This document shows, one piece after another, positions 37,644-38,284 of a DNA stretch of 64,000 nucleotides (positions are counted from its first letter, which is position 1; each line of letters begins with the position of its first letter). This DNA is from Lentimicrobium saccharophilum (lineage in GTDB: Bacteria; Bacteroidota; Bacteroidia; Bacteroidales; Lentimicrobiaceae), in assembly GCF_001192835.1 (NCBI RefSeq), contig NZ_DF968182.1, forward strand, positions 2,110,345 through 2,174,344. Reading direction: 5' to 3'. The notes under the pieces are model-generated. The model did no database searches. It saw only the letters and a program-made list of their open reading frames with translations, and was not told where the DNA came from. The translations under genes and the position numbers were made by a program.

Positions 37644-37675
37644 AAGCCTGCTTGTTATTTCCAGGCAGGCTTTTT
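37644..37675 (+). terminator. Terminator-like hairpin between tRNA-Pro and tRNA-Thr
   Basis: AAGCCTGC / GCAGGCTT (8 bp, 13-base loop) is followed by a T-run that ends at the base directly before the mature 5' end of tRNA-Thr. It has intrinsic-terminator form, yet tRNA-Thr has no visible promoter of its own, so it must be leaky or act in processing. Confidence 0.6.
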
Positions 37676-37748
37676 GCCACTTTAGCTCAGTCGGTAGAGC
37701 AGCTCATTCGTAATGAGCGGGTCGGGGGTTCGAGTCCCCTGAGTGGCT
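37676..37748 (+). tRNA. tRNA-Thr (anticodon CGT)
   Basis: Acceptor GCCACTT/GAGTGGC (one wobble), D arm GCTC/GAGC with loop AGTCGGTA, anticodon stem GCTCA/TGAGC with loop TTCGTAA (anticodon at 37709-37711), T arm GGGGG/CCCCT with TTCGAGT. Discriminator T; CCA not encoded. Its 3' end from 37718 onward is the first member of the 126-bp tandem array. Confidence 0.95.
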
Positions 37749-38284
37749 CACAAGCCGGATAACTTTCCGGCTTTTTTATTCCCCATAAACGGATTTAAGA
37801 AAAATAATGGCAGAGCAGTCTCGTCGCGCAAAGCGTGACGAGACGGGTCGGGGGTTCGAGTCCCCTGAGTGGCTCACAAGCCGGATAACTTTCCGGCTTT
37901 TTTATTCCCCATAAACGGATTTAAGAAAAATAATGGCAGAGCAGTCTCGTCGCGCAAAGCGTGACGAGACGGGTCGGGGGTTCGAGTCCCCTGAGTGGCT
38001 CACAAGCCGGATAACTTTCCGGCTTTTTTATTCCCCATAAACGAATTTAAGAAAAATAATGGCAGAGCAGTCTCGTCGCGCAAAGCGTGACGAGATTGGT
38101 CGGGGGTTCGAGTCCCCTGAGTGGCTCACAAGCCGGATAACTTTCCGGCTTTTTTATTCCCCATAAACGAATTTAAGAAAAATAATGGCAGAGCAGTCTC
38201 GTCGCGCAAAGCGTGACGAGACGGGTCGGGGGTTCGAGTCCCCTGAGTGGCTCACAAGCCGGATAACTTTCCGGCTTTTTTATT
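37718..38284 (+). repeat. 126-bp tandem array of tRNA-Thr 3' ends with terminators and tRNA-like hairpins
   Basis: Starting inside tRNA-Thr, a 126-bp unit is repeated about 4.5 times. The tRNA tail GAGTGGCTCA recurs at 37741, 37867, 37993, 38119 and 38245, exactly 126 bp apart. Each unit holds the T arm and acceptor 3' strand, then a terminator (stem AAGCCGG/CCGGCTT plus T6), an AT-rich spacer, then GGCAGAGCAG (like the D-arm end of the tRNA) and a 12-bp hairpin with AAA loop where the anticodon arm should be. The four tRNA-like remnants are 37809-37874, 37935-38000, 38061-38126 and 38187-38252; none has a 5' acceptor strand or full D arm, so none is a functional tRNA. Copies differ at only a few bases (GGATTT versus GAATTT; GAGACGG versus GAGATTG in the third remnant). 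Confidence 0.95.
37752..37777 (+). terminator. Terminator of tRNA-Thr (first of five copies)
   Basis: Stem AAGCCGG/CCGGCTT with an 8-base loop and a T-run of six, directly after the tRNA. Identical copies follow each of the four repeated tRNA tails at 126-bp steps, so any readthrough RNA meets up to five terminators. Confidence 0.85.

Follow-up and report, generated by a model that had tools for sequence, protein, structure and literature searches.

The tandem array behind the tRNA-Thr(CGT) gene of Lentimicrobium saccharophilum is one case of a widespread family of tRNA-gene repeats, often accompanied by a small GIY-YIG nuclease gene, of which we found no description in the literature searched. 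The array lies at 37718-38284 of the stretch of 64,000 nucleotides analysed here (the window). Its membership in this family of tRNA-linked palindromic elements appears very probable to us, and is well supported by the anatomy of the units, by ORF-bearing units at the same tRNA, by a shared palindrome and by the linkage of nuclease and tRNA genes. Our best explanation, to which we assign a probability of roughly 0.7, is that a tRNA-linked GIY-YIG element left this array behind as a relic, or has it as a satellite, in either case without an ORF, and that recombination provoked by a nuclease multiplied the units. The elements of the family may be mobile, and their putative nucleases may cut DNA.

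The array behind tRNA-Thr(CGT)

Tandem Repeats Finder reported 37718-38284 as the sole array across the window, with a period of 126, 4.5 copies and 98% match. All features described here lie on the plus strand. The intact parent gene occupies 37676-37749 (ARAGORN; Rfam RF00005, 62.4 bits), and its 30-nt tail, GGTCGGGGGTTCGAGTCCCCTGAGTGGCTC, is found at 37720-37749 in the tRNA itself and again from 37846, 37972, 38098 and 38224, at a spacing of 126 bp. Thus the tandem repeats with an exact 126-bp period and four extra tRNA-Thr(CGT) tails with terminators, described in the initial annotation, were fully reproduced. The terminator-like hairpin of the tRNA gene, located by sequence and a terminator scan, is present in five copies, the first directly behind the gene (37752-37777), the others at 37878-37903, 38004-38029, 38130-38155 and, at the end of the array, 38256-38281.

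Between the terminators lie four copies of the 3' part of tRNA-Thr, next to the intact parent and on the same strand. The first broken copy (37811-37877), delimited by sequence, comparison with the tRNA and folding, consists of a D-arm remnant (AGAGCA), a palindrome (37818-37844) in place of the anticodon arm, the variable loop, the T arm and the 3' acceptor strand, with the tail at 37846-37875. The second copy (37937-38003; palindrome from 37944, tail 37972-38001), the third (38063-38129; palindrome from 38070, tail 38098-38127) and the fourth (38189-38255; palindrome from 38196, tail 38224-38253) were read from the sequence. Every unit follows the same order: the AGAGCA remnant is followed by G-TCTCGTC-GCGCAAAGCGT-GACGAGA-C; behind it come the variable loop, the T arm and the 3' acceptor strand, and the unit closes with the terminator and some 40 bp of spacer. 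In all four units the palindrome TCTCGTC...GACGAGA occupies the position of the anticodon arm (GCTCATTCGTAATGAGC in tRNA-Thr) and forms a hairpin of 11-12 bp exactly at that site, and the remainder of the copy, from the variable loop through the T arm to the 3' acceptor strand, is the same as in tRNA-Thr. The 'tRNA-like block' of the initial annotation does exist, it is however the 3' part of the D arm plus the hairpin at the anticodon-arm site. The segment 37811-37876 folds with -38.4 kcal/mol (z -5.4). Among the four complete 126-bp units, counted from 37718, there are three variable columns, and the third unit has a two-base variant 3' of the hairpin.

The copies are 5'-truncated, they lack the 5' acceptor strand and the 5' D strand. 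A full tRNA duplication was considered and rejected, since the copies have neither the 5' acceptor strand nor the anticodon. In the array region ARAGORN and Rfam (gathering threshold) report only the gene at 37676-37749 and make no call in the broken copies, which agrees with the earlier statement that the extra tails cannot be tRNAs. There is no ORF of at least 60 aa within 37750-38284, and inspection by eye detected no ORF relic in the spacers of about 40 bp. A promoter scan, which does not cover Bacteroidota promoters and may thus miss those of the host, found no promoter-like site in the array.

Another terminator-like hairpin, found by sequence and terminator scan, lies at 37644-37675 in the interval between tRNA-Pro and tRNA-Thr. 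Because the T run of this tRNA-Pro terminator touches the first base of tRNA-Thr, the tRNA-Thr gene seems to depend on read-through or on a promoter in the hairpin region.

Broken copies of stable RNA genes in the genome and the genus

When the surroundings of all 43 tRNA genes of the window genome were searched for partial copies by a 12-base match, such copies were found at four genes: tRNA-Thr, tRNA-Pro(TGG), tRNA-Gly(CCC) and tRNA-Val(TAC). There is a single ORF-less copy at tRNA-Pro(TGG). Upstream of the intact tRNA-Gly(CCC) gene there are three 5'-half copies, about 72 bp apart and likewise ORF-less, with the palindrome TCTCGTCACCAATGACGAGA (L116 1616-1830). At tRNA-Val(TAC) we found two tandem 348-bp units, each combining a GIY-YIG gene with a broken, palindrome-bearing tRNA copy (L125 1770-2600), and at tRNA-Asp one GIY-YIG gene with a copy too degenerate for the 12-base search. 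An intact GIY-YIG gene, as expected of a free-standing homing endonuclease, is thus carried by the tRNA-Val and tRNA-Asp elements of this genome and is absent from the array. One more small GIY-YIG gene of the genome (L113) has no tRNA nearby.

The broken copies are not confined to tRNA genes. ORF-less 252-bp tandem units (3.7 copies, 98%) contain the 3' half of 5S rRNA with two palindromic insertions and a copy of the terminator; arrays of this type follow a 5S rRNA gene (L143 5162-6060) and fill a contig end (L142 4300-6126). The palindrome links these loci to the array: the pattern TCTYGTCN{2,30}GACRAGA has 14 sites in the 4.5 Mb of the window genome, as compared to two for the reversed-pattern control, and all 14 fall in broken copies (four of tRNA-Thr, three of tRNA-Gly, two of tRNA-Asp and five of 5S rRNA).

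Conservation in relatives, a check proposed in the initial annotation, proved the deciding one: other species of the genus have the unit at the same position behind tRNA-Thr. We read the stretch behind tRNA-Thr(CGT) in 18 of 19 Lentimicrobium (Bacteroidales) genomes, the window genome (G000) included. Units of the window build are present in seven of the 18, G000 among them, and 11 have no unit. Tandem units occur in G000, G018 (12 units, the last one degenerate), G009 and G015, single units in G011, G003 and, degenerate, G013. The palindrome is TCTCGTC/GACGAGA in G000, G011 and G003, a variant of it in G013, TCTTGTC/GACGAGA with nested doubles in G018, and CCCCGCC/GGCGGGG in G009 and G015; the G009 units have a second palindrome within the T loop. 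The copied tail always matches the local tRNA, e.g. GTGGG/CCCAT in G015. The G009 array is split over two contigs and the G015 contig stops within the array, so that such arrays evidently break assemblies, and one could suspect that the window array is itself an assembly artefact. We consider this extremely improbable, as the window genome is in two contigs, its units carry private and shared variants, and the same build is found with other sequences in independent arrays or single units of the congeners.

Two observations on the G018 genome belong here. Two ARAGORN calls of tRNA-Leu(TAA) (L003, at 1901 and 3017) are palindromic units of its tRNA-Thr array, which makes such units a source of false tRNA annotation. 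In addition, a TCTCGTC palindrome lies at L231 1501-1520, apparently in a reading frame; a match to a group II intron domain precedes it by about 1.3 kb.

The hairpin is kept among relatives. Over nine aligned hairpins from five congeners 88.9% of the cells are paired, with the inner bases changing, as compared to at most 51% when the alignment was slid. The covariation score was 0.245, whereas shuffles gave 0.161 (sd 0.023) and in none of 500 was it as high. In the same nine hairpins the number of pairs changed on both sides (2 vs. 1.9 in shuffles) and the number of pair types (6 vs. 6.4) showed no excess; with two of five measures not above shuffles, the covariation is modest.

The conserved pairing, the good folding of the units and the terminator kept by each of them would suit an RNA function, in which short terminated mimics of the tRNA tail would engage RNase P, RNase Z or further partners of tRNA. 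We regard this as quite unlikely. The array has no promoter-like site in the scan without Bacteroidota promoters, a terminator precedes each unit, the units lack the 5' acceptor strand, the T loop is interrupted in relatives, and 11 of the 18 congeners have no unit at tRNA-Thr. Moreover, the palindrome is common to the 5'-half copies upstream of tRNA-Gly and to the 5S copies. The initial annotation had proposed that the tails matter as short decoy RNAs, a reading that finds no support in this analysis: the existence of 5'-half tRNA-Gly copies, 5S copies, T loops broken by palindromes and units with a nuclease ORF indicates that the shared theme is a broken copy of a stable RNA combined with a palindrome, not the tail.

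The distribution of the units was compared with a terC tree of 15 genomes (G018, G015 and G005 were dropped because terC was outside the stretch, G008 was left out). Presence of units required three changes on the tree, the mean of shuffles was 4.4, and 57 of 500 shuffles were as low; hence the distribution is patchy and does not clearly cluster. G004, the nearest relative by terC identity, has no units at tRNA-Thr. Such patchiness, together with the near-identity of the units, could mean that the array is passive, a chance duplication of the tRNA-Thr tail that grew by slippage or unequal crossing over and to which palindrome and nuclease elements are irrelevant. Whatever the origin, recombination between copies must account for some of the units. 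However, a passive origin leaves unexplained the replacement of the anticodon arm by a palindrome otherwise found only in the broken Asp, Gly and 5S copies of this genome, the occurrence in other genomes of nuclease-bearing units of this build behind tRNA-Thr, and the recurrence at many tRNA isotypes (see below), and we judge it to be rather unlikely, though the most serious of the alternatives. The earlier suggestion that the array might be a by-product of slippage thus holds insofar as recombination between copies has surely shaped the copy number; slippage alone is too weak an explanation.

Nuclease-bearing units and their association with tRNA genes

We file the window array as the ORF-less form of a GIY-YIG element mainly because the same build, with a GIY-YIG gene, is found at tRNA-Thr(CGT) in two other genomes. 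In G261, which belongs to another family, three tandem units (period 336, 86% match) follow tRNA-Thr(CGT), each consisting of a GIY-YIG ORF, GGTAGAGCA, a palindrome, GGTC, the T arm and the tail (L193). In G029, of a family different from those of G261 and Lentimicrobium, there is one unit with a small GIY-YIG gene directly behind tRNA-Thr(CGT) (L020); 3' of the gene follows a broken tRNA-Thr with palindromes in both the anticodon arm and the T loop. Apart from the gene and the terminator, the order and the breakpoints of these units are those of the window units. Both forms are also seen at other tRNA genes. The tRNA-Pro(TGG) unit, ORF-less in the window genome, is ORF-bearing in G011, G005, G018 and G009. 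A single array at tRNA-Met in G013 contains two ORF-less copies, a GIY-YIG gene and two further copies, and at tRNA-Asp of Perlabentimonas ORF-less copies lie upstream and an ORF unit downstream, with the TCTCGTC palindrome.

An integrative element that targets tRNA genes by a tyrosine recombinase would duplicate the 3' end of the tRNA at each integration, and the array could consist of the remnants of such events: these elements leave a repeated tRNA 3' end at the far side of the insert (PMC9897764). This explanation seems highly improbable. The array has no ORF and hence no integrase gene, the GIY-YIG gene is the only ORF in the sister units in the stretches read, the arms are replaced by palindromes, and there are 5'-half forms.

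All 14 aligned proteins had a GIY-YIG domain match, and six of the 14 also matched the group I intron endonuclease model TIGR01453. Residues Y, Y-x-G, R, H and E, which we take to be the catalytic ones, are invariant across the 14 sequences. The dN/dS ratio was low: five pairs gave 0.05-0.13 and a tandem pair 0.37, values to be read with the reservation that several dS values exceeded 2; a seventh pair was saturated.

The association with tRNA genes was counted in 19 genus genomes over Pfam GIY-YIG matches in frames shorter than 200 aa, a set drawn by Pfam family without selection for likeness. A same-strand tRNA lay within 600 bp of 26 of the 51 small GIY-YIG matches, while 0.6% would be expected by chance, given the tRNA density of the window genome (43 tRNAs). 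Since the 26 linked genes sit at 22 tRNA sites (isotypes Asn, Asp, Arg, Leu, Met, Pro and Val), they are not independent. No tRNA was found within 600 bp of the other 25 matches, several of which are of another, free-standing type. Two further sets of loci were chosen for their similarity to proteins already linked to tRNA genes, which biases their linkage upward: a same-strand tRNA was within 400 bp in 26 of the 38 loci of a named set, obtained by a scan with proteins of the tRNA-Asp type, and within 600 bp in 25 of 30 loci from the best-matching genomes of an order set. In the named set, which includes loci from isolates of Flavobacterium (F. hydrophilum among them), Pedobacter punctiformis and Perlabentimonas gracilis as well as from Neomarinimicrobiota and Moraniibacteriota MAGs, 21 of the 26 tRNA-linked loci contain a partial tRNA copy by 12-base match. 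As to the other five loci of the order set, one has a tRNA at 677 bp, one has it on the opposite strand, and three start less than 150 bp from a contig end. Relatives of the G029 protein, not all of them necessarily linked to a tRNA, were present in 113 of the 247 order genomes (E 0.001).

Palindromes are a general property of the partial tRNA copies. After 33 of 124 rows were dropped because they repeated the same insert, 81 of the 91 distinct inserts or replacements had a perfect stem of at least 5 bp, as compared to 22.5 (sd 3.7, highest 33) for random stretches of the same loci in 200 draws; three of the 91 rows (L003: one tRNA-Lys, two tRNA-Leu) were kept despite wrong or non-parent tRNA calls. 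In rough classes, 38 inserts lie in the anticodon arm, 26 in the T arm, 24 on the D side and three elsewhere. The recurring types are TCCCGA/TCGGGA, CCTGCC/GGCAGG, CCCCGCC/GGCGGGG and TCTCGTC/GACGAGA. The last of these is found at tRNA-Asp positions 39-50 in Lentimicrobium (L055, L082), Perlabentimonas (L149) and G136 (L210).

Palindrome type and nuclease type pair loosely within genomes. The pattern TCTCGTCA...TGACGAGA occurs in nine of the 247 order genomes, namely in three of the four with a close nuclease of the Asp type and in six of the 243 others (p 1.3e-4, with a threshold chosen afterwards); when weaker Asp-type matches are counted the numbers are 5/51 vs. 4/196 genomes (p 0.02). G196 has a close Asp-type nuclease and no TCTCGTC-type palindrome. 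The palindrome sites read in G138 lie, by eye, in broken tRNA-Asp copies. Those read in G182, G184 and G204 coincide with no tRNA and no RNA family, and those in G104 and G137 with no tRNA or RNA gene recognised by eye; lying outside recognisable RNA genes, the palindromes of these five genomes are not counted as evidence for the family. In two congeners the RNase P RNA carries a palindrome at one corresponding hairpin, TCTCGTC/GACGAGA in G136 (L266) and TCCCGAT/ATCGGGA in G233 (L265), and both RNase P RNA genes are above the Rfam cut-off. Under the two-part interpretation given below, two palindrome types at one hairpin suggest that intact, functional RNA genes may be hit as well.

Some individual loci deserve mention. 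Beside tRNA-Val of other Bacteroidales there are tandem GIY-YIG units about 378-394 bp apart (L195 in G211, L205 in G245), one of the genomes being a single contig. At tRNA-Arg(CCG) of G018 (L079 600-1560) broken copies with CCTGCCTGCC palindromes lie upstream and downstream, ahead of a GIY-YIG gene. By title and abstract we found no paper in open-licence PubMed Central that treats bacterial GIY-YIG genes together with broken copies of tRNAs, which does not by itself prove novelty.

Possible mechanism and comparison with known systems

A full unit of the family comprises a tRNA 3' half, a terminator, a small GIY-YIG gene, a stub of the tRNA 5' half, a palindrome in place of one arm and the next 3' half, with the intact tRNA at one end of the series. 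The window unit would be such a unit without the nuclease gene, shrunk to 126 bp. In the mechanism that we propose by analogy with the phage enzyme SegB (see below), the family nuclease would cut tRNA (or 5S) genes, and recombinational repair over the short tail repeats would lay down units and multiply them in tandem, while recombination with the tRNA gene would keep the copies identical to the local tRNA. The palindrome that replaces an arm in the copy may destroy the cleavage site of the nuclease or label the unit; as the T arm is intact in the window copies, protection by the palindrome would require a nuclease site that includes the anticodon arm. That nuclease-provoked recombination built this particular array is about an even bet, which leaves its much more probable membership in the family unaffected.

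If a nuclease made the window array, it may have been the array's own, now lost, or one linked to tRNA-Asp and acting in trans, and the shared palindrome leads us to favour the tRNA-Asp-type enzyme. As no remnant of an ORF is seen in the window units, we infer the loss of a gene rather than observe it, and the ORF-less form could be older than the ORF-bearing one. A further interpretation, on balance doubtful, is that a nuclease and its own palindrome make up a two-part mobile element of a new class, which would prey on genes of structured RNAs and have the ORF-less arrays as satellites. The nuclease would then open a tRNA, 5S or similar gene at a stem-loop, and repair would leave a truncated copy with the stem-loop swapped for the palindrome. 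The Thr, Gly and 5S arrays would, under such a two-part organisation, be driven in trans by the tRNA-Asp-linked nuclease with which they share the palindrome, much as REP sequences are by RAYT.

It is instructive to compare the array with palindromic and tandem repeats known from other bacteria. REP/BIME sequences with RAYT transposases and the Rickettsia palindromic elements are dispersed palindromic elements. They resemble the present case in that short palindromes of one type occupy several genome sites and are loosely paired with a nuclease type; unlike REP, the present palindromes hardly occur in the window genome outside copies of stable RNA genes, and it is a GIY-YIG nuclease, not a RAYT, that is linked to them. 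In E. coli, tandem repeats containing a tRNA 3' end lie directly behind the tyrT tRNA gene and give the rtT RNA. The formal parallel to these repeats, drawn already in the initial annotation, is right, since our array too consists of tandem tails behind a tRNA gene; what it adds is the palindrome in place of an arm and the nuclease-bearing sisters, and we know of neither an arm-replacing palindrome nor nuclease-bearing sisters for the tyrT repeats. A search of open-licence PubMed Central returned no paper with rtT as its subject by title. Genomic islands that integrate into tRNA genes share with the array a partial tRNA copy at the far end (PMC9897764), whereas the array has no integrase, a size of hundreds of bp, a tandem arrangement, palindromic arms and, among its relatives, both 5' and 3' halves.

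The closest mechanistic parallel is SegB. According to its description (PMC13096335), this GIY-YIG enzyme of phage T6 makes breaks in tRNA genes with a preference for RAWTSGAAC, its genes cluster with tRNA genes in phages, and the tandem amplification of a tRNA-Tyr/segB segment depends on SegB as well as on functions of homologous recombination. The T-even phages have in common with the family a small GIY-YIG gene beside tRNA genes and the tandem amplification of tRNA-containing segments (PMC13096335), and in our reading the motif RAWTSGAAC resembles the tRNA T arm on the other strand. In contrast to segB, the family genes are chromosomal, in Bacteroidota and relatives, the units consist of broken tRNA or 5S copies with palindromic arms, and the window array is ORF-less. 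A tblastn search for phage relatives with one family protein gave no match at 1e-5, and for this reason we limit the link to SegB to mechanism.

If our interpretation is correct, broken tRNA and rRNA copies of this kind would be the footprint of a nuclease-linked selfish element and not random debris, and the family would be a chromosomal counterpart to the SegB-driven amplification of phages. It would also account readily for broken assemblies and spurious tRNA calls at loci of this type. Finally, it would raise the question of how an element that targets an essential tRNA gene keeps that gene intact, for which the exchange of an arm for a palindrome may be a key.
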